Of a stretch of DNA of 64,000 nt, positions 28,224 to 51,561 are shown in pieces. The translations under genes and the position numbers were made by a program. The stretch's first letter is position 1. Each line of letters opens with the position of its first letter. The notes beneath the pieces are model-generated. The model was not told the origin of the DNA. It did not search any database and worked only from the letters and a program-made list of their open reading frames with translations. The DNA comes from Desulfomicrobium escambiense DSM 10707 (GTDB taxonomy: Bacteria > Desulfobacterota > Desulfovibrionia > Desulfovibrionales > Desulfomicrobiaceae), in assembly GCF_000428825.1 (NCBI RefSeq), contig NZ_AUAR01000004.1, forward strand, positions 62,001 to 126,000. The letters run 5' to 3'.

Positions 28224-28300
28224 CGGGGCGTAGCGCAGTTTGGTAGCGCATCGGTTTTGGGAACCGAGGGTCGCATGTTCGAATCATGTCGCCCCGACCA
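28224..28300 (+). tRNA. tRNA-Pro (anticodon UGG)
   Basis: A complete cloverleaf: acceptor CGGGGCG/CGCCCCG, D stem GCGC/GCGC, anticodon arm TCGGT-TTTGGGA-ACCGA with anticodon TGG, T arm with TTCGAAT and an encoded CCA. The C1-G72 pair is typical of bacterial tRNA-Pro. The island inserts into its 3' half, so the 3' half here is island-borne; the displaced original lies at 51377-51424. A terminator stem (28311-28343) with a T run follows. Confidence 0.97.
28253..28270 (+). repeat. Left attachment site core (attL) in tRNA-Pro
   Basis: 18 bases spanning the anticodon arm (GGTTTTGGGAACCGAGGG) are identical to 51377-51394. Beyond this core the T-stem sequences differ while pairing is preserved, as expected when an integrated element restores the tRNA. 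Confidence 0.9.
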
Positions 28301-28357
28301 GAATGAAAACAAGGGCTTGGATGTAAAATCCAGGCCCTTTTTTCTTGCTGATTTTTG

Positions 28358-33962: not shown

Positions 33963-34586
33963 TCTCTGGTTCGCTTCGCCGAGATGGAGAGGGATTTCCT
34001 GCGGCCCCTACCGGACATCCCGCCCGAGCTGGCAACCTGGGCGTCGGTGAAGCTGCACGGTAACAGCCATGTCCAGTTCGAAAAATCGTTCTATTCCGCG
34101 CCGTTCACGCTGGTGCACAAGTCGCTCTGGTTGCGGGCCACCGAATAGACGGTGCAGATCTTCCACGAACAACAGCTCGTGGCCAGCCACCCCAGAATGT
34201 ACAAACCCGGCGCACGGAGCACGGTGCAGGACCACCTGCCGCCGGAGGCCAAGGCCTATCTGATGCGTGACCCGCAGTGGTGTCTCGCGCAGGCGGAAAA
34301 GGTCGGTGAGCGCTGCCTGGAACTGGTCCACGGTCTCTTTGCACACCGCGTCCTCGACAACCTGCGTGCCGTTCAAGGCCTGCGGCAACTCGGCGGTCGT
34401 TACGGCAAACGACGACTGGAGGCGGCCTGCGCCAGAGCCTTGGATCACGAGGCCGGCACGTATCGTAGCGTGAAGAACGTCCTGGAGAAGGGTCTGGATC
34501 AGCAAGGCCTGCCCCTGCCCATCGCCTTGCCTGATGCCTACGGCGGAAAATCCCGCTTCTCCCGCAACCCTGAACTGCTCAACTGA
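33963..34586 (+). pseudogene. IS21-family istA transposase, 3' remnant
   Basis: The frame encodes the C-terminal part of IstA: EMERDFLRPLPDIPPELATWASVKLHGNSHVQFEKSFYSAPF-type (33981-34100), then VASHPRMYKPGARSTVQDHLPPEAKAYL. A TAG at 34146-34148 interrupts it. The catalytic DDE part is missing, so the gene is 5'-truncated. Composition is much higher in GC than the flanking island. The 33746-33962 stretch before it shows nothing recognisable. Confidence 0.85.
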
Positions 34587-34597
34587 AGGACGCATTC

Positions 34598-35384
34598 ATG
34601 AATCCCATCCCCCAGCTTACGCCTCATCTGAAACAGCTCCGTCTCTCCGGCATCCTGGACTCTCTGGAGGTCCGCAACCGGCAGACCGTGGAGTAGAAGC
34701 TCGCCTACGTGGATTTCCTGGCCTTGCTCATCGAGGACGAGATCGCCCGCCGCGAACAGCGTAAACTCGTCATGCGGCAACGCAGGGCCGGTATCAACAC
34801 GCATAAGACACTCGAAGGCTACGACTTCACCTTCAACCTCGGAGTGAACCAGGCGCAGATCATGGATCTGGCCACCTGCCGCTACCTGGAGGAGAAAGTC
34901 CCGGTGCTCATCGTCGGCCCCTGCGGTACCGGCAAAAGCCACATCGCCCAGGCATTGGGGCGCATCGCCGTACGTCGCGGCTACGACACGGTGTTCTCCT
35001 CCCACGCCAAGCTCTTGGGCACAACTCGCCTCGGCGCGGGCAGTGGGCACGTTCGAGCGCAAGCTGGCGGCGCTGACTAAAGCCGATCTGCTCATCATCG
35101 ACGACTTCAGTCTCAAGCCCATGCGCTCCGGGCAGGATGAGGACTTCCACGACATCATCGCGGACCGCTACGAGCGGCGGCCGACGATCATCAAAAGCAA
35201 TCTGGACTTCTGGGAGTGGAACGACGCCTTCCACAACAAGCTGTTCGGCGCGGCCACCCTCGACCGGATCAGCCGCATCAAACTGGGCAAATTTTTGTCC
35301 GTCCGAAGCCGTCCTAGTGCTCCCCTTAAGGGGAGCACTAGTAATGTCCAGTGGACAGGACAGTGGACAGGTTGGACGGGAAAA
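34598..35384 (+). pseudogene. IS21-family istB ATPase, broken
   Basis: The start MNPIPQLTPHLKQLRLSGILDSLEVRN is typical of IstB, but TAG at 34694-34696 stops it. The frame then resumes with FLALLIEDEIARREQRK and Walker A GPCGTGKSHIAQALG. A frameshift near 35035 separates the Walker B part (ADLLIIDDFSLKPM). It lies 11 bases after the istA remnant in the normal IS21 order. Inactive. Confidence 0.88.
35315..35342. repeat. 28-bp perfect palindrome near the IS21 remnant end
   Basis: CTAGTGCTCCCC-TTAA-GGGGAGCACTAG without a mismatch, at the 3' end of the istB remnant, followed by short direct repeats of CAGTGGACAGG. It may be a terminator, a recombination scar or a target of the next element. Confidence 0.8.
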
Positions 35385-35399
35385 ATGAAATTTGAAATT

Positions 35400-36033
35400 T
35401 TGGGTTTGGAGAGCTGTTTAAAGTGATCGTTAATAGCCCGAGAGGGTTCCTCTTTGGCAAGTCTGGTGGATGTCAACTTTTCCACCAAGATTATTATATG
35501 GCAGATTCAAGAATTTTTTTCAGATGAGACAGGAATTTCAACTATTATTCTATTAGTAAATTTAGGTAATATGGTATTACCTTCTTATTTAATATGATTA
35601 TTGTTAATAGATTTTTTAATTAGTATACTTAAATAAAAAATAAATACATAATTAATAAATTCACTTTGTAATAAATTATTTGATTAGTATAATATACAGA
35701 GAGACAGAGTCAAACTAAGTTAAATATATTCACTCTCATGACAATGAGAAGAATAACAGTCAATCATAAACACATACACGAAAGTGTGAAACAAGACAGT
35801 CAGTATCAGTGAGACACGCCACCAGTGTGTCATCAAAATAAAATCAATCATAATCATCCAGAAGAAAACAAGTTTTCAGAATAACTCTCAGAGAGACACG
35901 TTAGTGCTCAAACATTGATATCGATATTAGCACACACACGACAATGTGCAAACAGATATATTGGGATTGATATACGCAGAGTGTGTCAGTCTCTTTTTCA
36001 TTTCAACAAACATAAACAGTATAGGAGGCAGAT
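35400..36033. other. AT-rich, hairpin-dense segment; candidate replication origin or operator array
   Basis: No gene. The first half (35,500-35,700) is extremely AT-rich. The second half holds a series of short inverted repeats, mostly with a CAC...GTG core: TCTCAT-GACA-ATGAGA (35734-35749), ACAC-GAAA-GTGT (35776-35787), GACAC...GTGTC (35813-35831), GAGACAC-GTTA-GTGCTC (35893-35909) and GCACA...TGTGC (35930-35949). AGGAGG at its end serves the Gp2-like gene. AT-rich DNA next to repeats in front of a replication-protein-like gene fits an origin, but an operator array is equally possible. Confidence 0.5.
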
Positions 36034-36672
36034 ATGAGAAGACAGAAAGTCATATATGAGAACGAGTATAAGGATCTTCCTATTAACACCAACAAAGAGA
36101 AAGGACTAGGATGTCTTAGTTCCTCTCTTCAGAGCTATAGAGAGAAGTTGGACTATATGACTGAGAACCACTCCAAGGTTCAACAAGTCAGATTCGATCT
36201 CAGATATCCTTGTGATGACTCTGTTCCATATGACAAGAAGCACATCTCTAGATTCTGCGAGTATATGAAACGATCATTTGATCGAATGGAGACTGGTGGT
36301 CACTTGGTGGATATGAAATTAGAATGGGTGCCTGATAAGAAAGATAAATCCTCTCATCCTCACTATCATTGCTTAGCTTTGGTCAATGGAAATGCTATTC
36401 AGTCCGAGTATACGGTTTTGAAAAAAGCTGAGCATTATTGGGGAATAGTTTTGAAAAATGATCAGGACGGATTGGTGCACTATTGCAACAAGGACAGGGG
36501 TGGCAATAAGCAGGAGAATGGCTTGATGTATCGTCGTGGATCGGCGGATGCTGAGGAAACTTTGGAGAAGATGCAGTATCAGGCTAGCTATATTGCCAAG
36601 GCTAGGGACAAGGACGGCTTGCCAAAAGGATCTTGGATCAGAGGAGGATCTCGTATTCCTAAAAACAGATAG
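36034..36672 (+). CDS. Inovirus Gp2-like / YagK-YfjJ domain protein
   Basis: 212 residues. Early VQQVRFDLRYPC and then SSHPHYHCLALVNG (His at 108, 110 and 112), HYWGIVLKNDQDGLVHYC, and YQASYIAKARDKDG match the YagK/YfjJ (inovirus Gp2) family, whose members resemble rolling-circle replication proteins of filamentous phages. A catalytic role at the upstream hairpin array is inference. Its AT-rich codon use differs from the genes downstream, so it may have joined the island separately. Confidence 0.75.
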   Translation: MRRQKVIYENEYKDLPINTNKEKGLGCLSSSLQSYREKLDYMTENHSKVQQVRFDLRYPCDDSVPYDKKHISRFCEYMKRSFDRMETGGHLVDMKLEWVPDKKDKSSHPHYHCLALVNGNAIQSEYTVLKKAEHYWGIVLKNDQDGLVHYCNKDRGGNKQENGLMYRRGSADAEETLEKMQYQASYIAKARDKDGLPKGSWIRGGSRIPKNR

Positions 36673-36852
36673 TATTCTTGCCTTCATTTCGCTTGGTTCA
36701 AATATCCTGCTGAATTCTCTCTTTCGTAATTTCACGTCTATATTTCCCCTGGAATAGATATTTTTTGAGGTCTGCTCAGAGCTATTATTGGCGATCCAGT
36801 AGTAGCTGTCTGGGTCGTATATTTTTTTTCACCATTTTACATGGAGGTCGTT

Positions 36853-37485
36853 ATGAGTGATGACAAAAAGAAGGCTAAGGTCAAGCAGAGTGGCATCATG
36901 AACATTCGTGGCAAGGAAGTCGCCACCTATCCGGCCATGATCGACTACGCCCACCAGTGTGGGATGCAGAGTCTGGAGGTCGCCGTGCTCCAGTTTCCGC
37001 AGGCCTCAAACGAGATGCGCGCCATTTGTGCGGCGCGTCTGGTTACATCCGGTGGACAGGTGTTCGCGGACATCGGAGACGCGAGTCCCGACAATGTCCC
37101 CAAGGGGTGCGTGGACAGTTTTGTGCGCATAGCCTCTACTCGTGCCAAGTCACGTGTCCTCTCTGACGCCTTCAATATTCGTAATGCCTTGGAAGGCGGT
37201 CAGGAGCAAGATTCAGAGCCTATTCTGCTCACAGCAGTTCAGGATGCGGACAATGTCTATGGCCTGCCGGAAGGCCAGTCTCAGGATAAGAGCGCCTTGA
37301 ACGGGGGTGGCAACAAGCCTCGTTCAGACAAACAGGTTAACTTGCTGCATCAATGTGCTTCAGGTCGTGGACTAGACCCGGAGGATGTGGTCAGGAATAT
37401 GTATGGGAAATCGATCGATGATTTGACGGGCAGTGAAGCAAATTTTGCTATTAGGGCGATTAAGAATGGTCAAGTCAGTCTCTGA
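36853..37485 (+). CDS. Rad52-motif-like / ssDNA-binding recombination accessory protein
   Basis: 210 residues. Residues 15-110 (IMNIRGKEVATYPAMIDYAHQCG, then GGQVFADIGDASPDNVPKGCVDSFVRIASTRAKSRVLSDAFNI) resemble a domain found with phage annealases, in which a conserved ADIGDA...RxAxTRAKxRAL stretch folds with single-strand annealing proteins. The C-terminal part (about 150-205) is a small helical domain (RSDKQVNLLHQCASGRGLDPEDVV). The GGAGG at 36844-36848 selects the start at 36853. It heads the recombination block. The assignment rests on motif resemblance. Confidence 0.6.
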   Translation: MSDDKKKAKVKQSGIMNIRGKEVATYPAMIDYAHQCGMQSLEVAVLQFPQASNEMRAICAARLVTSGGQVFADIGDASPDNVPKGCVDSFVRIASTRAKSRVLSDAFNIRNALEGGQEQDSEPILLTAVQDADNVYGLPEGQSQDKSALNGGGNKPRSDKQVNLLHQCASGRGLDPEDVVRNMYGKSIDDLTGSEANFAIRAIKNGQVSL

Positions 37486-37795
37486 GCAATGTCCCGAAGA
37501 ACGATGAATTGTTGCCGATAATAGCTCAATATTGTTGCTGCGATAAGGGTAAAGTCATCGTCATCAGATAGAAGTTACTGAATCTGATATTTTCGAGTAC
37601 TTTGATAAAAATTGGTGACTGGCAGGTGATCGCGTCCAGCCAGCCACCATCATTGCTCCAGATAACCGCAGTAGACTGATTGCCCAAAAAAGCAAAAACT
37701 TGAGTGGTTCGAAATTTTCCGGCAGGTCACACCTGTCAAGGGTATCAAGCTTGATCAGTGCTCTCTACTTTTCTGGAACGGTGAGAGCGCCCATT
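37486..37795. other. Intergenic stretch, nothing recognised
   Basis: I see no gene, repeat or convincing terminator between the Rad52-like gene and the small minus-strand frame. An intrinsic terminator might lie near 37610-37660, where GGCTGG-rich repeats occur. Confidence 0.4.
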
Positions 37796-38080
37796 TTATT
37801 GTAGTGTACGTGGGGGTCGCTTAGATTTTGGTTCTTGAATGCTAGATTTAAAAATCTCATATTCTTCTTTGCTCTTGAATATACAGCAATTCCTTTGATC
37901 TGCTCTTGATTCTTTAATTTTAGTCCAAAATTTATCGCGTTCTTTAATATTTGGTACATATCCTTCAAAAATACTTCTTCTTTGTCCATTCTCGTCCATT
38001 TTCACACATCCAGAAGCGATATAAACGCCTTCTTCAACGGAAAATGCATAACTTTTTGATAGTTTATTGCAAATAATCAT
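37796..38080 (-). CDS. Small hypothetical protein
   Basis: 94 residues on the strand opposite its neighbours: KSYAFSVEEGVYIASGCVKMDENGQRRSIFEGYVPNIKERDKFWTKIKES. It reads like a real soluble protein, but no family is recognised, and the ribosome site (AGGATAGGG) is weak. A false call is possible. Confidence 0.45.
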   Translation of the reverse strand: MIICNKLSKSYAFSVEEGVYIASGCVKMDENGQRRSIFEGYVPNIKERDKFWTKIKESRADQRNCCIFKSKEEYEIFKSSIQEPKSKRPPRTLQ

Positions 38081-38312
38081 GTTTCCCTATCCTGTTTTGC
38101 TCTTGTTGATATTGTTCAGTTCCGTGAATTTGCAGAAAATGTTCGCTTATGGAACAATTTTGAATATTAGTCTTTGGTTTTATTTTGTTACGCACTTGAA
38201 GGCCTGTTAATCAAATTAATACAGTCATATATTACTTCTTTGAGAGTCCGAAGGAATCCTCACAGAAGCACTTTTGTGGAGATCATTTTTTCCTGCCAAC
38301 AAAGGAGTGGTC

Positions 38313-38981
38313 ATGCACGATCAAAGTTACTGCTCATCCGAAACAATCAAACTAGCTAAAGCCTTAATACAAGTGCAACGTGTCTTGCAACCTGCAACTA
38401 AGGATCGGCTGAACCCTTTCACACATTCTAACTACGCCACCCTCAACAGCGTCATGGATTCCTGCCGTGAAGCGCTGCTTACCAACGGTATCTGGCTTAC
38501 CCAGTACCCGGTACCCGCCGAGCCTGGGCATCTGGGCTTGGTCACAAAGCTGGTCCACGCCGAATCCGGGCAGTGGCAGTCCTCGCACGCGGTTGTCCCC
38601 TTGCCGAAGAACGACCCCCAGGGCCTTGGCATCGCCATGACCTACATTCGGCGCTACTCAATCTCCGCCATGCTCGGCATCGTGACCGAGGACGACACCG
38701 ACGGGAACTTGCCCAAGGACTCCGGCAAGGGTGGGCAGCGCCAGAAAAGGAATCCCGCCATGCAGGACTCTGCACCTTCTCCGCATCCTTCCGGTCGATC
38801 ACAGCCAACCCAACTCCCGAAACTCGACGGCATCACCTACCAGGAGATCACCGCCACAGACGGGCAGGTGTGCATCGTGGCCACCGGCAATACCCAGGCC
38901 AAGAAGGATCTCCTGGCCGGCGCCGGGTTCAAATGGAATCCTCAACGGAAAATGTGGTGGAAATATGCGCAAGCATCATGA
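38313..38981 (+). CDS. ERF-family single-strand annealing protein with a C-terminal add-on
   Basis: 222 residues after AAAGGAG. Residues about 10-130 are ERF: LAKALIQVQRVLQPATKDRLNPFTHSNYATLNSVMDSCREALLTNGI, AESGQWQSS, NDPQGLGIAMTYIRRYSISAMLGI. The C-terminal segment (about 170-222) ends AKKDLLAGAGFKWNPQRKMWWKYA, a short domain seen at the ends of unrelated phage and plasmid proteins. ERF anneals complementary single strands in phage recombination; the next gene supplies the nuclease. Confidence 0.85.
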   Translation: MHDQSYCSSETIKLAKALIQVQRVLQPATKDRLNPFTHSNYATLNSVMDSCREALLTNGIWLTQYPVPAEPGHLGLVTKLVHAESGQWQSSHAVVPLPKNDPQGLGIAMTYIRRYSISAMLGIVTEDDTDGNLPKDSGKGGQRQKRNPAMQDSAPSPHPSGRSQPTQLPKLDGITYQEITATDGQVCIVATGNTQAKKDLLAGAGFKWNPQRKMWWKYAQAS

Positions 38982-39003
38982 AATTCAATATACAAAAAAC
39001 AAG

Positions 39004-39032
39004 CGAAGGCTGCTCCACTCGGGCGGCCTTCG
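39004..39032 (+). terminator. Hairpin in the ERF-nuclease junction
   Basis: Arms CGAAGGC and GCCTTCG, then ATTTTGGAGGG, so the T-rich base runs straight into the ribosome site of the next gene. It is one of five such junction hairpins (39004, 40271, 41985, 43045, 44857). Confidence 0.7.
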
Positions 39033-39049
39033 TCATTTTGGAGGGTAGC

Positions 39050-40246
39050 ATGAACGATCCCGCCCAAGCTCAAGTGGACAGGTCCCACGGTCTCATGGCG
39101 CTTCTGGCCAAGGGGCTTATCGAATCCTCGGCGCAAAGAACCGCGTCTTCACTGGGTGACCGGAGCCGGTATATCGGCATGTCGGACATAGGTCGCGCCC
39201 TAGAGTGCCCTCGTGCAGCCGTGGGTCGCAAGCTCTTCGGGCATGGCGACGACCTTCACCAACACGACCTTGCGGCTGTGCTGGCCAGGCAACTGCGCCT
39301 GCAACGCGGCCATTGGTTCGAGGCTGGTATTACCCAAGTCTTCAGGCAGCAACGACTGCCCGTTATTGAGCAACTCGAAATCGTGACGAGCCACCAAGGG
39401 GTGCCGATTCGAGCGCACTTGGACTTCGTATTCGCAAGCGAAGTAGGGCAACCCACGGTGCGGATTCTTGAGCTGAAAAGCTGCGAGCAAATCCCACCAA
39501 CGCTGTATTCTTCGTACGAAACGCAGGTCTACGGTCAGGTCGGGCTGTTGCATGCGCTTTGGGGCCAGCCGGCATTCGGCGTCCATGTTGAAGATAGTCA
39601 CGGGAAGGCCGGGCTCACGTTTCCGCAGATTTGCAGGGCGAAGCTTGGCATCGAAATGCCCGCCCATCCTTCTACGGTCGACATCGAGGCCTGGGTGCTC
39701 TGCCTCTCCATGTCGGATGCCAATGCGTTTGGGCCATACCTGCCGGATGACACCATGCTGGGCCTCTGCCTCAAGGCAGCAGAGGACCTCTGGAACGACG
39801 TCGAAGCATCCAGGGATAAGGGCGCTGACCTCGACGACCTGCCCACGGCCCAGGGGTTTCATCCCCTGTGCTCGTGGTGCGAATTCAACGCCGATTGCCC
39901 GAAATTTGATGGGCTCGATCAGCCGCAGTGGAGCGATACGCTGGACCTGCTCAAAGATTTGAAGGCCAGACAGGGCGAGTTTGAAGTCGAGATATCGGAA
40001 ATCGAGGAGGGACTCAGGACCGCTTATGCCTTGAGCGATGTCGGCGGATCCTGGATCAATGCAGGCAGCCATCGCTTCCGGGTCTCGGCGCAAAATGGCA
40101 GGCGCACCCTGAACAAGGAGCAATTGCGCTTGGAACTCTCGACTGTCCTTGGTGAGGAGAAGGCGGACGCGATTATCGCCAGGTGCGAGTGGGAGGGAAA
40201 GCCCTTTGACCGGCTGACCATCAGCAGGATTAACAAGCGATCGTAG
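39050..40246 (+). CDS. Cas4/RecB-like PD-(D/E)XK nuclease with a Cys cluster
   Basis: 398 residues. The nuclease core reads PIRAHLDFVFASEVGQPTVRILELKSCEQ (about residues 120-150), giving the D...ExK motif, and a Cys is conserved upstream (IGRALECPRAAVG). The C-terminal GFHPLCSWCEFNADCPKF supplies three further Cys of a likely Fe-S cluster as in Cas4 and AddB-type nucleases. The ATG at 39050 has GGAGGG in front. Next to ERF, it is probably the 5'-3' resecting exonuclease of a two-component recombination system. Confidence 0.8.
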   Translation: MNDPAQAQVDRSHGLMALLAKGLIESSAQRTASSLGDRSRYIGMSDIGRALECPRAAVGRKLFGHGDDLHQHDLAAVLARQLRLQRGHWFEAGITQVFRQQRLPVIEQLEIVTSHQGVPIRAHLDFVFASEVGQPTVRILELKSCEQIPPTLYSSYETQVYGQVGLLHALWGQPAFGVHVEDSHGKAGLTFPQICRAKLGIEMPAHPSTVDIEAWVLCLSMSDANAFGPYLPDDTMLGLCLKAAEDLWNDVEASRDKGADLDDLPTAQGFHPLCSWCEFNADCPKFDGLDQPQWSDTLDLLKDLKARQGEFEVEISEIEEGLRTAYALSDVGGSWINAGSHRFRVSAQNGRRTLNKEQLRLELSTVLGEEKADAIIARCEWEGKPFDRLTISRINKRS

Positions 40247-40270
40247 TTCAGAAAATTATCAGCCAAGAAA

Positions 40271-40300
40271 TCCCGGCTACCTGTAACAGGGCGGCCGGGA
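40271..40300 (+). terminator. Hairpin in the nuclease-AAA junction
   Basis: Outer arms TCCCGGC and GCCGGGA, with an inner stem CCTGT/ACAGG, followed by TGTCTATTTTATGGAG and the next start. Confidence 0.65.
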
Positions 40301-40322
40301 TGTCTATTTTATGGAGCAGAAA

Positions 40323-41309
40323 ATGACCAACACCATTCACGACGAACTTGAAAAACTCCAGGCCGTGGAACTGGACGCAGGGACAGTTTTCAGCGGCAGC
40401 CCGTCGGGCAGGATCATCCGGGGCTATGCCAGCTCCTGCAGCTATACACCGACCCCGGATCCTGGCTACATTTTCCACGAGACGAGCCGAGATATCGCAG
40501 TTTGGCTGATGAACATTTCCGACCCGCTGTATATCTTCGGTCCCACAGGTAGTGGGAAAACGAGCGCCCTCAAGCAGCTGGCCTCCAGGCTTAACTATCC
40601 CGTCTTCGAGGTCACTGGGCACAGCCGCCTGGAGTTCCCCGACCTGGTGGGGCACCTGTCGGTTCGCAACGGCAACATGGAATTCGAATACGGCCCTCTG
40701 GCCTTGGCCATGAAATTTGGCGGGTTGTTTCTTCTCAATGAGATCGACCTGCTCGAACCGGCTACGGCCACGGGCCTCAACGGCGTTCTCGATGGTGAGG
40801 CGCTGTGCATCGCGGAGAATGGCGGTGAACTCATCATCCCTCACCCAATGTTCCGTTTCGCAGCCACGGCCAATACCAACGGAGGATCCGACGAGACGGG
40901 CCTGTATCAGGGAACCCTTCGGCAGAACCTCGCCTTTCTCGATCGCTTCTGGCTGTGCGAGATGGGGTATCCTGCTCGCGACGCCGAGGAGAAGCTCTTG
41001 GGCGGATGCTGTCCGAAACTTCCCGAGACCATCCGCAAGAAAATGGTCGAATACGCCAACGAGGTCCGTCGGCTTTTCATGGGCGAGGCCGGTGTCGGAA
41101 TCGCCAACAGCATCGAGGTCACATTCTCGACTCGGACCCTTCTGCGCTGGGCTGATCTGACCGTGCGATTCCAGCCATTATCCCGGCAAGGAGTGCAGCC
41201 GGTGACATACGCTCTGGACCGCGCCCTGGGCTTTCGAGCCACCAGGGAAACCAGGGCCATGCTCCATGAACTCGCCCAGCGCGTCTTCCCGCAGTCCATG
41301 GGGGAGTAG
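40323..41309 (+). CDS. MoxR/CbbQ-type AAA+ ATPase
   Basis: 328 residues: Walker A GPTGSGKTS (about 72-80), TGHSRLEFPDLVGHLSV, Walker B GLFLLNEIDLLEP, sensor I FRFAATANTNGGSDETG and a C-terminal helical lid. This is the AAA_5 branch that works with VWA proteins as a chaperone-like remodeller (NorQ-NorD, CbbQ-CbbO, CobS-CobT). The start at 40323 is chosen because GGAG sits 8 bases upstream; an in-frame ATG at 40311 overlaps that site. The VWA partner is encoded at 43092. Confidence 0.88.
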   Translation: MTNTIHDELEKLQAVELDAGTVFSGSPSGRIIRGYASSCSYTPTPDPGYIFHETSRDIAVWLMNISDPLYIFGPTGSGKTSALKQLASRLNYPVFEVTGHSRLEFPDLVGHLSVRNGNMEFEYGPLALAMKFGGLFLLNEIDLLEPATATGLNGVLDGEALCIAENGGELIIPHPMFRFAATANTNGGSDETGLYQGTLRQNLAFLDRFWLCEMGYPARDAEEKLLGGCCPKLPETIRKKMVEYANEVRRLFMGEAGVGIANSIEVTFSTRTLLRWADLTVRFQPLSRQGVQPVTYALDRALGFRATRETRAMLHELAQRVFPQSMGE

Positions 41310-41368
41310 AAAGGAGTGCTGCTGCTGAAACACAAAAAGATGCGCCCACTCCCGACGACCTGACCAAA

Positions 41369-41668
41369 GTGCGCCAAGCCATGACCTCGGTCCTTCAGGC
41401 CATGGTTGCCAACCCCTCCTACCTGACAACCTGCGCCCATCCTCCATCCGTTCTCCTGGAAAAACCCACGCCACATGGTGGCAAGTTCTGGAAAGCCGTG
41501 ACGCACCCAAACGACTTGGCCCTGCAGTGGGGACGACTCAACACCGCCGGTCAAGGCCGCGTCCTGGAACTGGCCAGATGCGCCAGGGGCAATCCGGTGC
41601 AGGAGATGATGGATAGGGCTCTGGCCAAGATCCATGAAGGATACCGGCTTTGCTGGGTCACATTTTGA
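41369..41668 (+). CDS. Small WGR-like domain protein (A)
   Basis: 99 residues from a GTG start. GGKFWKAVTHPNDLALQWGRLNTAGQ followed by MMDRALAKIHEGYRL matches the WGR domain pattern (aromatic-rich start, WGR, GQ, C-terminal K..GY). WGR domains bind nucleic acids or DNA-protein complexes in PARPs and in some bacterial defence and MoxR-associated proteins. The frame is open upstream to the AAA gene, so the true start (non-ATG) is uncertain. It has a short paralogue at 41702. Confidence 0.65.
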   Translation: MRQAMTSVLQAMVANPSYLTTCAHPPSVLLEKPTPHGGKFWKAVTHPNDLALQWGRLNTAGQGRVLELARCARGNPVQEMMDRALAKIHEGYRLCWVTF

Positions 41669-41701
41669 AAATCAACATAACTAACCAAAGTGAGCATTTA
41701 T

Positions 41702-41983
41702 ATGAATAGAGCTCAATCGGATTTCCCTTTCCACCGGTCCATCGAACTGGCCAAGCAGGTTCCCGAGACTGGGTTTCGCTATCACTGGAAAGCCGAGGTC
41801 AACACCTTGGGGCTGACCATCCGCATGTGGGTGGGAGGTTTTGATAGCAAGCCATTTGAGACCTGCGTCACCCGGACCATCAAAAGCCGGGAGTGCAAGA
41901 ACGAATGCCCCATCCAGGAGATGTGGCGTAGGGTGCTGGTCAAGATCGACCGGCAGGACTTCATCATCGTGAACGGAAATTAG
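41702..41983 (+). CDS. Small WGR-like domain protein (B), divergent paralogue
   Basis: 93 residues. FRYHWKAEVNTLGLTIRMWVGGFDSKPFE and CPIQEMWRRVLVKIDRQDF align with protein A: NPVQEMMDRALAKI corresponds to CPIQEMWRRVLVKI. The WGR tripeptide has become WVG. It sits 33 bases after protein A, an apparent tandem duplication that has diverged. Function unknown. Confidence 0.6.
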   Translation: MNRAQSDFPFHRSIELAKQVPETGFRYHWKAEVNTLGLTIRMWVGGFDSKPFETCVTRTIKSRECKNECPIQEMWRRVLVKIDRQDFIIVNGN

Positions 41984-41984
41984 G

Positions 41985-42006
41985 GCGCCACACCAGGCGC
42001 TCTTTT
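41985..42006 (+). terminator. Hairpin in the WGR-DUF3150 junction
   Basis: Arms GCGCC and GGCGC around ACACCA, then TCTTTTTATTT and the ribosome site GAGGAG. The stem begins next to the upstream stop codon. Confidence 0.75.
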
Positions 42007-42023
42007 TATTTGAGGAGAAGAAC

Positions 42024-43022
42024 ATGAACACGCAAACCGACATCAAGGTCTTGGACAGCCTCCTGGCCCTGCACCTTGAGGTGAATATCTGGACGGCACG
42101 CAAGAAATTGAGCCCCGAGGACTTTGCCGGGGCCACGTTACCCCCCGAGGATCTGGCGTCCCTGGGCAGCAAGAGGGTCTGCGATCCGGAAGCCCTGCGG
42201 GTCTTCGGGACCTTGAAGGCCAGGGCCGTGAGCCTTCTGGACAGGCATGGTATCCGCTTCCTTGGCGGATGGGCCATCCCCGAGAGCCAGGCGGACGCCA
42301 TCGTGACCGAGCTTGATCAGATCCTGCAGGACTTCAACGCTGCCAAGGAGGATTTCCTGTCGCGCTACGATGAATCCGTTCGGGACTGGATCGCTAAACA
42401 CTCGGGCTGGGAGCAGATCATCGCCGATTCGACCGTCAGCGCTGACTATGTCCGAAGCCGAATGGGCTTCATCTGGCGGCTTTACCGCATCGTTCCCCCC
42501 AATGCGGCAGACCCGGTCATGAAAGGACTCAAGGACGAGGTCGCGAGCCTGGGTCAGACCCTGTTCGGCGAGGTTTCCAAGGCGGCCACGGAGGCCTGGC
42601 ACAAATGTTTTGCCGGAAAGACCGAGATCACCCGTAAGGCTCTCTCGCCCCTGCGGACCATCCATCAGAAACTCTCGGGCCTGAGCTGCGTCGAGCCGAG
42701 GGTATCTCCGGTTGCGGACCTCATTCACACTGCGTTCGAACACTTGCCCAAACGCGGCAGGATCGAAGGTGCGAACCTGCTCATGCTTCAGGGCCTCGTC
42801 TCCCTGCTGCGGGACACGGACGCCCTCATCGAGCATGGACAGAAGATAATGGACGGAACGACTTCCAAGAACCTTCTGTCGCTTCTGGTCGAAGGGCAGG
42901 GGGAGATGCCGGAGTTGGATGTCCAGGAGGAAGTGGACATCCTGCCCACGGTGGACGATTTGCCGCCGATATTCCCGGACATTCCCATGCAACCGGTACT
43001 GCCCAACTGCGGGCTTTGGTAA
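42024..43022 (+). CDS. DUF3150 family protein
   Basis: 332 residues, soluble and mostly helical: LGSKRVCDPEALRVFGTLKARAVSLLDRHGIRFLGGWAIPESQADAIVTELDQILQDFNAAKEDFLSRYDESVRDWI is typical of DUF3150. The family co-occurs with CobS-like AAA+ and CobT-like VWA proteins in phages, plasmids and ICEs, as here. GAGGAGAAG precedes the ATG. The biochemical role is unknown; an adaptor for the AAA-VWA pair is the simplest guess. Confidence 0.82.
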   Translation: MNTQTDIKVLDSLLALHLEVNIWTARKKLSPEDFAGATLPPEDLASLGSKRVCDPEALRVFGTLKARAVSLLDRHGIRFLGGWAIPESQADAIVTELDQILQDFNAAKEDFLSRYDESVRDWIAKHSGWEQIIADSTVSADYVRSRMGFIWRLYRIVPPNAADPVMKGLKDEVASLGQTLFGEVSKAATEAWHKCFAGKTEITRKALSPLRTIHQKLSGLSCVEPRVSPVADLIHTAFEHLPKRGRIEGANLLMLQGLVSLLRDTDALIEHGQKIMDGTTSKNLLSLLVEGQGEMPELDVQEEVDILPTVDDLPPIFPDIPMQPVLPNCGLW

Positions 43023-43044
43023 TGATGAACATATTCACCCGATC

Positions 43045-43069
43045 AGCCCTGGAGTCACAAGCTCCGGGG
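43045..43069 (+). terminator. Hairpin in the DUF3150-VWA junction
   Basis: AGCCC-GGAG paired with CTCC-GGGGCT around CACAAG, followed by TTTT and then TTGGAGG for the next gene. Confidence 0.75.
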
Positions 43070-43091
43070 CTTTTCGCATTTGGAGGCACAG

Positions 43092-44831
43092 ATGATCGAC
43101 ACACGGGCCGTAATGCGCTCGCTGCCCTTGGTGGCAAGCGTGCTCGGCAGAAAATACGGAGTGAAAGTCGAGATAGGAGGTACTGACGCCTATACGGACG
43201 GCACGGTCATCCGTCTGCCGTCCTTGCCGGGCGATGTACCGGAAACCCTTCTGGCCATGGCTCGCGGATACCTGGACCACGAGGCCGGACATGTTCGGGA
43301 TACGGATTTCCAGGCCTTGAAGGACGCTTCGCTCATGCCGATCGAAAAACATGTGTGGAACACCTTGGAGGATTGGCGCGTTGAGCACAAACTCGCGTCC
43401 ATATTCCCTGGATGCCGCCAGAACTTCGATTGGCTGATCTCGCATGTTTTCGGCACGGAGACGGAAGACGAGCCTGCCCAACCTGCGGCTATCATTCTTA
43501 ACTGGCTCCTGCTCGAAATCCGGTCCTGGGATGTCCAGGCCCTGTCAAGCAAGCGGGACATTCTGGCTGGACAGTTGGACACGGTTTTTCCGGGGATAAG
43601 GCCGAAGATTGGACGCGTGCTCACCGTGGTTCGAACCAGATGCCGTTCGACCCAGGACGCCATAGACTTCGCCCGTGAAATTGTGCGTATTCTGGATCAG
43701 TACGCGAATTCAACCGAACAGCCAGTGTCGCCTAATCAGGACGAACCTGGGGACGCCAGGTTCGAACCGGATGCGCGGAACACCTTAGAGCGTTCTGAAC
43801 GAAATGCCCCCGGAGCCCAAGATGAAAAAAGCGACCAGTCCGAATGGGGAGGGGAGGTGCAGGATGACGCCCCTGAGGGAGACGGCAGCCATGACGGCCG
43901 TGACAGCTCAGATGATGCCGACGCTTCAGGGGCTTTCCCAGGCAGAGAGGATCAGGACCAGGCAAAGGAGCATGTCCGTGATCTGGTCGGGGCAGGGGAG
44001 GACGTCCTCCCGCAAAGCCTCGGCGATATCCTGGCGGACACCCTGCAGGCCACGTCTCGGCAGTCCCAGGAAGGAGCCGTCACCGTGGCCATCCCCACGG
44101 AGAAAAGTGCAGCCCCCCTGACCGAGACGGATATCTTGGAGGCACGGATGGCGTCCATGGCGCTGCGGACTAGGATGCAAGGGCTTCTCCAAACCAAGAT
44201 CCTGGCACGCGCTTCCAGCGGAAGAAGGGGTCGTCTGGATACCGGGCAGCTCCATCGTCTGGCAGTTTCGGATCCCAGGCTTTTCCGGGTCAAGGCCGAG
44301 CGAACCGGGATCGATACCACCGTGCACATCCTGCTCGACTGCTCCGGATCAATGGTTCGCAGGATCCGCTTGGCCTGTTGCTCCTGCTATGCCGTCGCCT
44401 CTGCCTTGGAAGCATCAAAGATCAACGTCGCCGTGACCGCGTTTCCCAGTTCGCAGTTGCAAAATGGCTCGTATTCAACCGTCGCCCCCGTCATCACGCA
44501 CGGCCAGAAGGTGCACGCAAATCTGGACCTCGTCCCCGCAGGCGGCACGCCAATGGGGGAAGCCTTGTGGTGGGTCATGCAGGATATGTTGCCTTTGGGC
44601 GAGCTGCGAAAGCTCATTCTCGTCGTGACGGATGGGGAGCCGGATTCTCTGGAGTGCGCGACTCAGGCGATCGAGCAGGGATGCAAGGCGGGCTTCGAGA
44701 TATACGGCATCGGGATCACCAGCCCCGGCATCAACGTGCTCCTGCCAGGGCGCAGCGCCGTGGTGAACTCCATGACGGAGCTAGCCCCAGCGATGTTTAC
44801 TCTGCTGGAGGGCGCGATTCTTGGGTGCTGA
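43092..44831 (+). CDS. CobT-like protein: N-terminal HExxH metallopeptidase-like and C-terminal VWA domain
   Basis: 579 residues. Residues 63-67 are HEAGH in YLDHEAGHVRDTDF, followed about 30 residues later by NTLEDWRVEHKL, a plausible third zinc ligand: a gluzincin-like pattern. A long acidic, low-complexity linker (about 215-310) leads to a VWA domain with MIDAS DCSGSM (Asp416, Ser418, Ser420), TPMGEALWW and VTDGEPD. The family is called CobT-like, but cobalt chelation is not implied here. Partner of the MoxR-type ATPase (40323) and DUF3150. The ATG at 43092 has GGAGG 8 bases upstream; an in-frame TTG is weaker. Confidence 0.82.
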   Translation: MIDTRAVMRSLPLVASVLGRKYGVKVEIGGTDAYTDGTVIRLPSLPGDVPETLLAMARGYLDHEAGHVRDTDFQALKDASLMPIEKHVWNTLEDWRVEHKLASIFPGCRQNFDWLISHVFGTETEDEPAQPAAIILNWLLLEIRSWDVQALSSKRDILAGQLDTVFPGIRPKIGRVLTVVRTRCRSTQDAIDFAREIVRILDQYANSTEQPVSPNQDEPGDARFEPDARNTLERSERNAPGAQDEKSDQSEWGGEVQDDAPEGDGSHDGRDSSDDADASGAFPGREDQDQAKEHVRDLVGAGEDVLPQSLGDILADTLQATSRQSQEGAVTVAIPTEKSAAPLTETDILEARMASMALRTRMQGLLQTKILARASSGRRGRLDTGQLHRLAVSDPRLFRVKAERTGIDTTVHILLDCSGSMVRRIRLACCSCYAVASALEASKINVAVTAFPSSQLQNGSYSTVAPVITHGQKVHANLDLVPAGGTPMGEALWWVMQDMLPLGELRKLILVVTDGEPDSLECATQAIEQGCKAGFEIYGIGITSPGINVLLPGRSAVVNSMTELAPAMFTLLEGAILGC

Positions 44832-46117: not shown

Positions 46118-47041
46118 TCATCCGACCGCATTTCTCCCTCTCCCGACGGCGTCGCGGTGCTCGCGCGCCAAGTTCAGGAAGGCCCGCAGATAGTCGGTGT
46201 CCGCATCGGCCTCGCGGATGCCGAGGTGGATCTGCTTGTCGATTCCGTCCTTGCCCAGCCTGACCGGGACAACGGCAAACCTGTCGGCCCACTCCTCGAT
46301 CAGCCAGCGCGGCATGGCCGACACTCCCCGTCCGCTGGCGACCATCTGCAGCAGGATGTCCGTGGTCTCGATCAGCTTGTGCTGCCTGGGACTGACTCCC
46401 GCCGGGGTCAGGAATCGGGTGAAGACGTCCAGCCGGTCAACGCTGACCGGATAGGTGATCAGGACCTCTCCGGCGAGCTGTTCCGGCCGGACGTGGTCCG
46501 CTTGGGACAGAGTGTGTCCCGCGCTTACCACCAGCACCTGTTCGTAGTCGAATACGGCCTCGTAAAGCAGACCCCGTACGTACAGCGGGTCGGGCGTGAC
46601 CAGCAGGTCGATCTCGTATCCCGTCAGAGCTCCGATGCCGCCAAACTGAAACTTCTGCCTCACGTCCAGGTCCACGGCCGGCCAGGCCGCCAGGTACGAC
46701 GCGGCGATCTTCAGCAGCCACTGGTAGCACGGATGACATTCCATGCCGATGCGCAGAGTGCCGCGTTCACCTTGGGCGAACTGCCTCAGGCGTTCCTCGG
46801 CTTGGGCGAACTGAGGCGCCAGGCGGTCGGCCAGATTCAGGAGGTATTCGCCGGCCTGGGTCGGGCGCAGGCTGCGTCCCTCACGATGCCAGATCTCCAC
46901 CCCGAGCCGGTCCTCCAGCTTCCGGATGCTGTGGCTCAAGGCGGACTGCGTGAGGTTCAGGGCTGAGGCCGCCGCGGTCAGCGAGCCGTGTCGCTGCACG
47001 GCCCTCAGGATTTCCAGGTGAATGCGTTCGATGCCTGCCAT
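46118..47041 (-). CDS. metR: LysR-family regulator of methionine synthesis
   Basis: 307 residues: an N-terminal HTH ([53 protein letters not shown]) and a LysR effector domain typical of MetR ([11 protein letters not shown]). MetR binds homocysteine and activates metE, glyA and others. It is divergent from metE, the classic arrangement, so it should act on the shared 47042-47158 region. Confidence 0.88.
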
Positions 47042-47158
47042 GCGGTTTCCTTATCTATGAATTCTGCTCATGCGATTCTGAAAAATTACCATTTTCATTC
47101 ATGAATGCAAGCAGGTAATCACGGCGTCATCTTTGCAACTCAACAAGAGGATACCGTC
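47042..47158. promoter_or_regulatory. metR-metE divergent control region
   Basis: It holds a perfect 12-base palindrome CATTCATGAATG (47096-47107) and TGAA/TTCA half-sites (TGAATTCTGCTCA at 47058; TGAA...TTCA around 47080-47098), in keeping with MetR operators (TGAA-N5-TTCA type). No cobalamin riboswitch is visible. Confidence 0.6.
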
Positions 47159-49441
47159 ATGGCATACACGCATAATCTGGGCTATCCGCGCGTTGGCGCC
47201 CGCCGGGAACTGAAGGCCGCGCTCGAAGCCCACTGGAAGGGGCAGTTGTCCGCATTCGACCTCGAGGAGGCCGCCCGCGAGATCCGCACCGCCAACTGGC
47301 GGCGGCAGTCCGGGCTCGATCTGGTTCCGGTGGGGGACTTTTCGCTCTATGATCAGGTTCTGGATATGAGCTTCGCCCTGGGCAACGTCCCCGAGCGGGC
47401 CGAAGCCTGTCAGGGGACCGTCCTGGACCGCTATTTCCGTGTGGCTCGCGGCCGCACCGCGGGTGACGCTGCGGGCGTGGCGGCAGGTGAGATGACAAAG
47501 TGGTTCGACACCAACTACCACTACATCGTCCCCGAGTTCACATCCGGGACGGAGTTCACCCTTCATCCGCAGCGCATCCTCGAACAGGTGGACGAGGCCC
47601 GGGACGCTGGCGTATCGGCCAAGCCGGTGCTCATCGGACCCATGACCTATCTGTGGCTTGGCAAGGAAAAGGACGGCTCCGACAAATGGGGCCTCCTGGA
47701 CCGCCTGCTCCCGGTCTACGTCGAACTGCTCGGCCTTCTGGCCGGGCGCGGGGTGGGCTGGGTGCAGATGGATGAACCCGTGCTGGTCACCGATCTGGAG
47801 CCCCGTCAGCGCGACATGTTCGCCGGGGCCTACGCAGCCTTGTCGGGGCGCGGCGTCAGGCTGCTGCTGACCACGTTCTTCGGAGGCCTGGGTGAGAACC
47901 TCGATCTGGCCCTCGGCCTGCCGGTGGACGGCGTGCACGTGGATGCCGTGCGGGGCCGGGAAGAGTTGCCCGCCGTGGTGGACAGGCTGCCGAAGGGAAA
48001 AGTGCTGTCCGTGGGCATCATCGATGGCCGCAACATCTGGAAGACGGATCTGGCAGCCGCTCTTGATGTCCTCGAACCCCTGGACGCCCGCCTGGGGGAC
48101 CGGCTCTGGATCGCCCCGTCGTGTTCTCTGCTGCACGTGCCCGTGGATCTCGACCTGGAAACGGACATGGACGGGGAGATCCGTTCGTGGCTGGCCTTTG
48201 CCGCGCAGAAACTCGACGAGCTGAGGCTGCTCGGCCGGGCCTTGGACAGGGGGCGTGCGGCCGTGGCCGGGGAACTCGCCGCCAACGCTAAGGCCTTGGC
48301 GGGACGCCGATCCTCGACCCGCGTGCACGACCCGATCGTAAAGGCGCGCCTCGACGCCATCGAGCCATCCTGGGGAAACCGCCGGTCGCCGTATCCCGTT
48401 CGCTCGGCCCTGCACAGACGGCGGTTCGGCCTTCCCCTGTATCCCACCACAACCATCGGTTCCTTTCCGCAGACTGCGGAAATCCGCACGGCGAGGAGGC
48501 AGTACCGGGCCGGCGAGCTGAAACGGGAAGCTTATGTCCAGGCCATGCAGGACCAGATAAGGCGCGTGGTCTCGGCGCAGGAGGATCTGGGCCTCGATGT
48601 CCTTGTGCATGGCGAGGCCGAGCGCAACGACATGGTCGAATACTTCGGCGAGCAACTACGGGGCTATGTCTTTAGCGGTTTCGGCTGGGTGCAGTCCTAC
48701 GGTTCGCGTTGCGTCAAACCACCAATCATCTTCGGAGACATCTCCCGCCTTGGCCCGATGACCGTGGAGTGGATCACCTTTGCCCAGTCACTGACGGACA
48801 AGCCCATGAAAGGCATGCTGACCGGCCCGGTGACCATTCTGAACTGGTCCTTCGTGCGCGACGACCAGCCCCGTTCCCGGACCTGCCTGCAACTGGCCCT
48901 GGCCGTTCGTGATGAGGTGCTGGATCTGGAAAAGGCCGGCATCGGCATCATCCAGATCGACGAGGCGGCTCTGCGCGAGGGGCTGCCGTTGCGGACATCG
49001 CAGTGGCGGGAATACCTGGACTGGGCCGTGGGCGCGTACCGCATCGCGGCCAACGGAGTCAGGGACGAGACGCAGATACACACCCACATGTGCTATTCGG
49101 AATTCAACGACATCATCGCGGCCATCGCGGACATGGATGCCGACGTCATCACCATCGAGACCTCGCGTTCGGGCATGGAACTGCTCGATGTCTTCGACAG
49201 CTTCAGCTACCCCAACGAGATCGGGCCGGGCGTGTACGATATCCATTCACCCAACGTTCCGGAAGCGCAGGCCATGGTCGATTTGCTGCGTAAGGCAGCC
49301 CGGCACATCCCGCCGGAACGGCTGTGGGTCAACCCGGACTGCGGTCTGAAAACTCGTCAGTGGGGCGAGGTCCTCCCATCTCTCTCCGCAATGGTCGCCG
49401 CCGCGAAGACGATGCGGACCTCCACGGTCATCGACGTATAA
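47159..49441 (+). CDS. metE: Cobalamin-independent methionine synthase
   Basis: 760 residues, full length. Start [23 protein letters not shown]-terminal Zn ligands are seen in [13 protein letters not shown] (His and Cys), [13 protein letters not shown] (Glu) and [15 protein letters not shown] (Cys). It transfers the methyl of 5-methyltetrahydropteroyl-glutamates to homocysteine without B12. The last residues after MVAAAKTMR are supplied by the abutting IS256 remnant, which also gives the stop. GC content is host-like, unlike the AT-rich island core. The host has cobS (27 kb) and so probably makes B12; the island gene gives a B12-free route. Confidence 0.95.
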
Positions 49442-50033: not shown

Positions 50034-51194
50034 TTATGCAGTTTTTGGATTTTCAACATCTATCGAAGTATTTTGCTTTTCAATATTCGCAAATAAATTT
50101 CCTGCCACTTCAGCTGCTCGTTTTAGAGCGTCATCACGAAGATGTGCGTAGCGCTGTGTCATTTGCGGAGATTTGTGTGTCAATAGCTTTTGTAGTGTAT
50201 AGATATCAACTTGACCAGAGCTGGCTAGCATTGAAGCATACACATGCCTGAGTCCATGCAAAGCTCGAAAATCTTCAGGAAGTCCGGCGCGGCGTTTTAT
50301 CCGTGCTGTTTGATGTTTGACATCTTTTCTCAAGCCTCCATTTCGGCCTGGGAAGACGTATTCACTGCCTGTTCTGGGGTGGTCCAGAAACAGTTGTCTG
50401 GCCGCTTCGTTCATTGGGATCCGCTGGTCCTTTCCGCCTTTGGGATCGCGGATAAAAATGAAACCTTTATCGAAATCTAAATCAGACCATTTCAGCTTGA
50501 ATATTTCTCCACGGCGCATGCCTGTGAAAAGGGCTGCTTTCATTATCCCTGCTGCTTGTATGTTCGTATCTTCAGCAATCGCTTTGAAAAGACGCTCCAT
50601 TTCATCTGGTGTCAGATCTTCAGTCTTGTGATTATCTGGTTTTGGAAACTCAATGGTAAAGGGCAAGCGAGAGCATAAGTGCATTTTAACGCCAAAATTG
50701 ATAATACGTCGAAACAATTCAAGTGTGTTTTTGACAGTCTGCGGACTCTTTGATTTGAGCATCATCACTCGAACCCTATCCACATCCAGTGGAGCAATTT
50801 CCTCGGGCTCCTTGTGACCGAAAGGAACTTCGAGATAGCGTATGAATCGGCTCTCGTCAGTCTTGATTCCTTTGAAATCAACTTTGCTTTTTTTGTACTC
50901 AGTCCACAGTTTGGAGAGCGTCCAGCGACTGTCGTCCGCCTCTTTCTCTGCCTTGATTTTGTTGCGCCGGGTTTTGTTCGAATCGGACTTTCCGTCTATG
51001 CGCTCGGCCCTTAAGCGGGCTGCCCTGGCTTCGGTCATGTCGTCACGGCCTTGGTAGCCAGCTTTCTCTTCGATCAGCTTTCCATCCCTGCGGTATACGA
51101 TGTAATAGACTCGTTCCGGTTTTCCATCCGCGCCAGTGCCGATGACGAAATAGACGCCTGGATAGCGCGTTTTTTCGCGTTTTCGTGATGGCAT
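50034..51194 (-). CDS. Tyrosine-type site-specific integrase
   Basis: 386 residues. An N-terminal arm-binding part is followed by a core-binding SAM-like domain (WTEYKKSKVDFKGIKTDESRFIRYL) and a catalytic domain with Arg in TGMRRGEIFKL, Lys in DPKGGKDQRIP, HGLRHVYASML (His/Arg) and HKSPQMTQRYAHL with the nucleophile Tyr. The protein is complete. It is placed between the right arm site and attR and points inward, the usual arrangement for an element that enters tRNA 3' ends. It is the likely driver of integration of the 28.25-51.39 kb island. Confidence 0.93.
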   Translation of the reverse strand: MPSRKREKTRYPGVYFVIGTGADGKPERVYYIVYRRDGKLIEEKAGYQGRDDMTEARAARLRAERIDGKSDSNKTRRNKIKAEKEADDSRWTLSKLWTEYKKSKVDFKGIKTDESRFIRYLEVPFGHKEPEEIAPLDVDRVRVMMLKSKSPQTVKNTLELFRRIINFGVKMHLCSRLPFTIEFPKPDNHKTEDLTPDEMERLFKAIAEDTNIQAAGIMKAALFTGMRRGEIFKLKWSDLDFDKGFIFIRDPKGGKDQRIPMNEAARQLFLDHPRTGSEYVFPGRNGGLRKDVKHQTARIKRRAGLPEDFRALHGLRHVYASMLASSGQVDIYTLQKLLTHKSPQMTQRYAHLRDDALKRAAEVAGNLFANIEKQNTSIDVENPKTA

Positions 51195-51376: not shown

Positions 51377-51394
51377 GGTTTTGGGAACCGAGGG
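51377..51394 (+). repeat. Right attachment site core (attR)
   Basis: 18 bases identical to 28253-28270. It is followed directly by the displaced tRNA-Pro 3' half. Confidence 0.9.
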
Positions 51395-51424
51395 CCGCTG
51401 GTTCGAGTCCAGTCGCCCCGACCA
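51377..51424 (+). tRNA. Displaced 3' half of tRNA-Pro (fragment)
   Basis: From the anticodon arm through T arm (TTCGAGT) to CCA, with no D arm or acceptor 5' strand. It differs from the intact gene at compensating T-stem positions and keeps a terminator stem (51433-51468) with seven T, so it is the original chromosomal 3' end left by the insertion. Confidence 0.9.
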
Positions 51425-51561
51425 GGAAAAACAAAGGCTTACAGGAAAATCACCTGTAGGCCTTTTTTTGCGCTCAGGCGATACAGTTTTTCCTATGCCG
51501 TTTGACATACGGAACCAAGCGAACTATGTACCCATTTTTCCAATAATATCAGCCTGTGAGC

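Follow-up and report, generated by a model that had tools for sequence, protein, structure and literature searches.

An AAA+/WGR-type/DUF3150/zincin-VWA operon of Desulfomicrobium escambiense as a possible variant of the IncC/SXT host-defence-evasion module

INTRODUCTION

What task might call for a MoxR-type AAA+ ATPase and a VWA protein with a metallopeptidase-like N-terminus, encoded with two small WGR-like proteins and a DUF3150 protein between them and with recombination genes immediately upstream? The question is raised by a locus of Desulfomicrobium escambiense DSM 10707, which lies in contig NZ_AUAR01000004.1; positions 62,001 to 126,000 of this contig (64,000 nucleotides) were analysed as a whole and are referred to below as the window, whose own numbering is used throughout. 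A sequence-only reading of the five genes had proposed that they form a new combination, possibly a remodelling or defence machine, and had named a role in recombination as the alternative. Our current working hypothesis, to which we assign a probability of about 0.5, is that the window genes are the Desulfovibrionales version of the host-defence-evasion (hde)-type module carried by mobile elements of the IncC/SXT kind.

RESULTS

Kinship with the hde module

Seven consecutive forward-strand genes span positions 38274–44831 (Table 1), encoding, in this order, an ERF annealase, a RecE-like exonuclease, an AAA+ ATPase, the small proteins W1 and W2, a DUF3150 protein and a VWA protein; the position of the exonuclease gene directly 3' of ERF is a conserved order that is also seen in relatives. 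All five genes from AAA+ to VWA are present on the same strand with intergenic gaps of 21–72 bp, in agreement with the operon that had been described from the sequence. The VWA gene has an in-frame TTG at 43080, upstream of its ATG at 43095.

The same gene set, in nearly the same order, is found in R997 (an SXT/R391-type integrative and conjugative element, ICE), in the IncC plasmids pECO17386 and pKAZ3 and in pQBR55, DUF3150 and the zincin-VWA protein being constant members, and the set recurs on IncC plasmids, SXT-type ICEs, environmental plasmids and sulfate-reducer islands. The window AAA+ protein is 47 % identical to its IncC (pKAZ3) counterpart over 298 aa (E = 2e-91), and the VWA protein is 28 % identical to the IncC VWA protein end to end (E = 2e-56), with the zinc motif kept. 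The suspected kinship with the SXT/R391 set is supported by R997, which is closest in order (ssb-bet-exo-AAA-WGR-DUF3150-x-VWA-radC) and encodes a WGR-type protein of 255 aa in the W1 position, between AAA+ and DUF3150 (E = 2e-9 with the W1 hidden Markov model; hhalign E = 1e-6); unlike the short, duplicated W1 and W2, this protein is extended by an additional C-terminal domain and ends in an aromatic tail. In pKAZ3 and pECO17386 the order is AAA - 302-aa protein - single-stranded DNA-binding protein (SSB) - Bet - exonuclease - DUF3150 - VWA. Window and IncC sets thus have in common an orthologous CobS-like AAA+ protein, an annealase with an exonuclease, a DUF3150 protein and a zincin-like VWA protein, adjacent on a mobile element. 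They differ in the annealase (ERF in the window, Bet in IncC), in the small WGR pair as against the IncC protein vcrx090, and in gene order, the window having AAA-W-W-DUF3150-VWA after the exonuclease and IncC having AAA before SSB.

The hde literature names vcrx091 as SSB (PMC8744291) and vcrx092-093 as annealase and exonuclease (PMC12753305); since vcrx091 is SSB, vcrx089-090 correspond by gene order to the AAA+ protein and the 302-aa protein, and the last ~95 residues of the latter (vcrx090) are related to the end of the R997 WGR protein (E = 9e-6). For pKAZ3, joint deletion of vcrx089-090 is reported to increase restriction 906-fold for EcoKI and 424-fold for EcoBI, but only about 10-fold for EcoRV and EcoVIII; deletion of the exonuclease gene vcrx093 also increased restriction by several enzymes, 426-fold in the case of EcoBI (PMC11602122). 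Later hde papers ascribe IncC break repair to vcrx091-093, and one of them describes the SSB as not essential and as missing from VBR1 plasmids (PMC12753305). EcoKI and EcoBI are two related type I enzymes, and we infer that the bias towards them suggests protein recognition rather than general repair. Because the window AAA+ protein is orthologous to the IncC AAA+ protein (vcrx089 by gene order), for which anti-restriction activity is reported, the window set may be regarded as a variant of this anti-defence module.

The AAA+ and VWA proteins and the zincin-like site

The MoxR-type AAA+/VWA pair recognized earlier is a sound assignment: a motor with AAA_5 and CbbQ_C matches is encoded beside a VWA protein in which the MIDAS residues (DxSxS, T, D) are complete and as conserved as HExxH/ED. 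In fold comparison the C-terminal part of the VWA protein matched Rea1-MIDAS (Z 22.2, rmsd 2.2 over 198 residues) and the NorQ-bound VWA domain of NorD (Z 19.2, rmsd 3.9 over 224), VWA-domain matches having taken up the search listing for this protein. In NorQD, the AAA+ ring is gripped by the C-terminus of the VWA protein and has the VWA finger in its pore (PMC13036017). The best PDB sequence match of the window VWA protein is cobaltochelatase CobT (profile E = 3e-26). Identity with the cobaltochelatase subunits was nonetheless rejected, as the AAA+ protein scored 72.4 bits against an equivalog cut-off of 558.6 for CobS (TIGR01650) and the VWA protein 36.9 bits against 759.1 for CobT (TIGR01651).

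The pattern HEAGH...NTLEDWRVE, which had been noticed near the VWA N-terminus, is real; counted from the ATG at 43095 its residues are H62, E63, H66, E92, D93, R95 and E97, the earlier numbering having been off by one. HExxH and ED are invariant in all 96 homologues that cover the site, at pairwise identities down to 27 %, and are kept in the VWA proteins of R997, pQBR55 and IncC. Structure prediction, which had been put forward as a check, places HExxH on a confident AlphaFold2 helix (residues 50–69) and ED on a second (82–103); the mean pLDDT (confidence score) of the model is 83.9, with values of 92–97 per ten-residue block over residues 51–120. As a sequence-level match, the N-terminus fits the zincin pattern, namely HExxH with a putative acidic ligand on a second helix.

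WGR-type proteins

The claim of two small WGR-like proteins holds in part. W1 carries the WGR letters (LQWGRLNTAGQG) and scores 15.4 bits with the Pfam WGR model, under the cut-off of 22, and W2 has lost the motif. We read W1 as a divergent WGR protein, and profile comparison shows W2 to be its paralogue (hhalign of the two families, E = 6e-9). Positional relatives of W1 clear the Pfam cut-off (34.3 bits in locus L069, 27.6 bits in L094), and relatives of the R997 WGR protein on Methylomonas plasmids (28 % identity, 6e-21) have a profile link to W1 (1e-6). Comparison of W1 with PDB sequences gave no significant match, the best being 2ra8 (E = 0.12).

In 12 Desulfovibrio-type loci the AAA+ protein carries the WGR domain as a C-terminal fusion, which ties the domain to the motor. 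Co-occurrence is real in the database survey that had been suggested: a WGR-type protein lies between AAA+ and DUF3150, or is fused to AAA+, in 58 of 100 AAA-DUF3150 loci (14 + 12 + 20 separate, 12 fused), a count that includes several duplicates or close relatives and is therefore not one of independent loci, and in which the assignment of 20 loci (Methylomonas, Desulfuromonadales) relies less on Pfam than on position and profile similarity. As background, the Pfam WGR model had no match in 31 related genomes, and it also misses W1 itself. The joint absence of a zinc site and of WGR co-occurrence had been named as decisive against the sequence-only proposal; at the level of sequence, a zinc-site-like pattern and WGR co-occurrence are both found.

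Several loci depart from the common arrangement. Nitratidesulfovibrio liaohensis (L075, 1069–2006) has three consecutive W-type genes between AAA and DUF3150. In WGR-less loci (L060, L101, L103, L107, L111, L116) the gap between exonuclease and AAA often holds a protein starting 'MGYxSDVxLxL', perhaps an alternative adaptor, for which the one example tested had no Pfam match; some WGR-less loci have toxin-antitoxin-like small genes in the gap before AAA+.

DUF3150 and its aromatic tail

The window DUF3150 protein matches PF11348 over positions 1–257 of 257 with 333 bits, above the gathering cut-off. Its AlphaFold2 model is mostly helical (mean pLDDT 81.5; residues 292–329 mostly <50), and a linker of predicted disorder precedes the C-terminal GLW tail. 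As Foldseek found no PDB match with E < 0.001, and fold comparison nothing above Z 7.2, no function can be read from the fold. Relatives occur among predicted viral proteins (E = 3e-14), one of them named DUF3150, and no paper mentioning DUF3150 was found in the literature searched.

An aromatic C-terminal residue is present on DUF3150 in 97 of 101 loci, the last two residues being LW in 64, WF in 18, FF in 7 and FW in 5. Among the products of the partner genes it is found in 0/46 ERF, 1/60 exonuclease, 7/99 AAA and 1/97 VWA proteins. A more divergent DUF3150 subfamily (L040-L046, L052) is without the tail, most of its members ending in '...NYKR(L/F)IDLS' or nearly so. In seven lineages outside the Desulfovibrionales, the protein in the WGR position shares its final dipeptide with its own DUF3150 protein: Geobacter type (WFF/WFF), Desulfuromonadales (WFW/WFW), Methylomonas (YWF/CWF), locus L153 (EWF/LWF), IncC (YFF/HFF), R997 (FYF/YYF) and pQBR55 (VWF/VWF), the last counted by position, its homology to WGR-type proteins not being established. 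The loci compared included L154, L156, L158, L131, L134, L140 and L153. If these tails were paired at random, a match in every one of the seven pairs would have a chance of 12/5040 = 0.0024, a post hoc figure for lineages that are not fully independent. In the Desulfovibrionales, including the window, DUF3150 ends in GLW and W1 and W2 have no matching tail. Most simply, the shared aromatic tail would serve as a peptide by which these proteins dock to one and the same partner.

A probable integrative element at tRNA-Pro

Two sites carry imperfect copies, 49 bp long, of the 3' half of tRNA-Pro, a repeat for which zero occurrences are expected in shuffled sequence; together with the integrase gene close to the second site (Table 1), they suggest that the operon is housed in a 23-kb integrative element. 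The genome is that of a member of an order of sulfate reducers, the nearest named matches coming mostly from Desulfovibrio and Nitratidesulfovibrio. DUF3150 is patchy in its distribution (4 of 16 same-genus genomes searched, and at most six copies per genome elsewhere in the order), which fits the expectation for mobile DNA. It is found in 1,142 plasmid records, of which 976 are predicted to be conjugative.

Other features of the region were noted. The T-stem bases that differ between the two tRNA-Pro copies look compensatory. Next to the tRNA-Pro end lies an AT-rich frame of 428 aa (28951–30237) with no Pfam match (E up to 0.01). Two possible replication genes of the element encode a P-loop (AAA_25) protein with a C-terminal helix-turn-helix (31481–33682) and a YagK/YfjJ-type replication-initiator-like protein (36034–36672), and frames at 34152–35426 resemble remnants of an IS21-type element, with an IstB-like match at 35043–35426. 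A LysR regulator and metE (cobalamin-independent methionine synthase) at 46118–49441, within the inferred element, are possibly cargo.

Table 1. Positions and supporting matches of the operon genes and of the inferred integrative element
Feature	Position	Strand	Evidence
att-like copy of tRNA-Pro 3' half	28253..28301	+	49-bp imperfect repeat with 51377-51425
ERF-family single-strand annealase (recombination arm)	38274..38981	+	Pfam ERF 8e-31; phrog_155 1e-35
RecE-like exonuclease (recombination arm)	38999..40246	+	phrog_434 RecE-like recombination exonuclease 2e-6
MoxR/CobS-like AAA+ ATPase	40311/40326-41309	+	AAA_5 3e-18; CbbQ_C 8e-12; phrog_249 4e-55
W1, predicted divergent WGR-domain protein	41369..41668	+	Pfam WGR 15.4 bits, under cut-off
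W2, predicted W1 paralogue without WGR motif	41690..41983	+	hhalign E = 6e-9
DUF3150 protein, disordered linker and C-terminal GLW tail	42024..43022	+	DUF3150 1e-99
VWA protein, N-terminal zincin-like domain, disordered linker, C-terminal VWA/MIDAS	43095..44831	+	CobT 5e-13; CobT_C 2e-9; VWA 6e-5
Tyrosine integrase of inferred element	50034..51194	-	Pfam Phage_integrase 1e-30
att-like copy, far end of inferred element	51377..51425	+	49-bp imperfect repeat with 28253-28301

DISCUSSION

We hypothesize that the window genes serve a mobile element in evading host defence, and that they would do so by two arms. In the first, the annealase and exonuclease would rejoin DNA that has been cut by host nucleases. 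In the second, the WGR-type proteins would place the MoxR AAA+ ring on or near DNA, where the ring, coupled to the zincin-VWA protein, would remodel restriction enzymes, above all those of type I, while these sit on incoming DNA or travel along it. Like NorD, the VWA part would dock in the pore of the ring; the zincin-like domain at the N-terminus would retain the protein that is pulled out, or cut it, and DUF3150 would be an adaptor docked through its aromatic tail. This scheme presumes that the Desulfovibrionales copy acts as the IncC module does, that the restriction enzyme is itself the substrate, that this AAA+ protein and the VWA-zincin protein work together, that DUF3150 is indeed an adaptor and, for cutting, that the zincin-like site is proteolytic; each of these points is inferred.

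A number of points weigh against this reading. The reported anti-restriction activity comes from IncC, and none from a Desulfovibrionales copy; moreover, the IncC genes credited with it are vcrx089-090 and the exonuclease gene, DUF3150 and VWA lying outside the five-gene hde operon. No detectable WGR domain is present in vcrx090, whose N-terminus is not recognizably WGR, and W1 shows no direct similarity to vcrx090, the link running through the R997 WGR protein, whose C-terminal half is related to vcrx090. Both W1 and W2 fail the gathering cut-off of the Pfam WGR model (PF05406), W2 with zero matches, and WGR as a universal part of the machine must be rejected, as about 40 % of loci are without a recognizable WGR-type protein. 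Zinc binding by the VWA N-terminal domain is likewise a prediction from its motif. Finally, Pfam, phrog and equivalog scans gave no SSB-family match among the proteins tested from 36034–44831, and since an SSB is unrecognized in the operon the window set reads as a variant of the hde module, not a full member.

The most probable of the alternatives, which we nevertheless consider unlikely, is that the set is a recombination accessory only, in which the AAA+/VWA pair loads, strips or recycles annealase, exonuclease or SSB at DNA ends with no restriction-specific target, anti-restriction being a by-product of better break repair. Indeed, ERF and exonuclease genes adjoin in most loci, and loss of vcrx093 likewise has a large effect on EcoBI restriction of pKAZ3 (PMC11602122). 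A general repair defect, however, would not be expected to affect EcoKI and EcoBI far more than EcoRV, as the vcrx089-090 deletion is reported to do, and CobS and CobT genes occur in phages such as T5S1 with no recognized annealase beside them. The recombination role named by the sequence-only reading is half right, in that annealase and exonuclease make up the arm of this module that repairs breaks.

A machine for DNA-protein crosslinks, of the SPRTN/Wss1 kind, seems improbable. WGR would sense ends, the AAA+ protein would extract and the zincin would cut end-bound proteins such as relaxase or nucleases, clearing the path of the exonuclease; the likeness to SPRTN/Wss1 is an analogy. A zincin-like motif, AAA+, WGR and exonuclease within one operon, and the largely conjugative character predicted for DUF3150 plasmids, are consistent with such a machine, but the phenotype reported for IncC is anti-restriction and we know of no tie to crosslinked substrates.

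We regard a cellular anti-phage defence system as very improbable. Conflict systems do include other MoxR-vWA sets (PMC7159879), yet PADLOC offered no specific model, giving weak P-loop matches to AAA+ and none to the other proteins tested, and the operon lies beside recombination genes in a setting of integrase and att repeat, with an IncC orthologue of its AAA+ protein that counters host defence. The defence machine suggested earlier is accordingly not supported. A true CobS/CobT pair for metal chelation or metalloenzyme maturation is scarcely credible, for despite CobS and CobT profile similarity, including the CobT match in PDB, the scores are far under the equivalog cut-offs, annealase and exonuclease are constant company and a scan of the operon region turned up no cobalamin gene.

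The combination had also been thought new, a claim that is not supported: in R997, AAA and DUF3150 are already separated by a gene for a WGR-type protein, and a MoxR protein with a metallopeptidase-VWA partner has been described in jumbo phages (PMC7824862). In those of group 2.2 the VWA partner of the AAA+ protein bears an N-terminal metallopeptidase domain, as in the window; the pair is there proposed to act in virion assembly, and the passages mention no DUF3150, WGR or recombination genes (PMC7824862). NorQ/NorD, RavA/ViaA, CbbQ/CbbO and CobS/CobT resemble the window pair in AAA+ clade and VWA docking mode, but remodel metalloenzymes, rubisco or respiratory complexes and are without WGR or DUF3150. 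What is new here is that about 58 of 100 loci have a WGR-type protein fused to AAA+ or placed between it and DUF3150, that the HExxH...ED.R.E site is invariant, and that DUF3150 has an aromatic tail whose final dipeptide recurs in the WGR-position protein of seven other lineages.

Within the hde-type hypothesis it is tempting to speculate on a stronger, and in our view doubtful, version, an ATP-driven anti-restriction protease in which WGR-type proteins would bring the ring to incoming DNA, a matched aromatic tail would dock proteins to the complex, and restriction-enzyme subunits at work on that DNA would be dismantled and then cut by the VWA-linked zincin. If true, this would be the mobile-element counterpart of host ClpXP restriction alleviation. 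The passages on the IncC AAA+ pair describe large protection against EcoKI and EcoBI and give no mechanism; a recurrent AAA+/WGR-type/DUF3150/zincin-VWA machine supplies residues that can be tested, namely the Walker lysine, the HExxH glutamate, the MIDAS aspartate and the aromatic tails. Should the protease reading be true, the destruction or disassembly of the enzyme would be a way for mobile DNA to evade restriction in addition to DNA mimicry.

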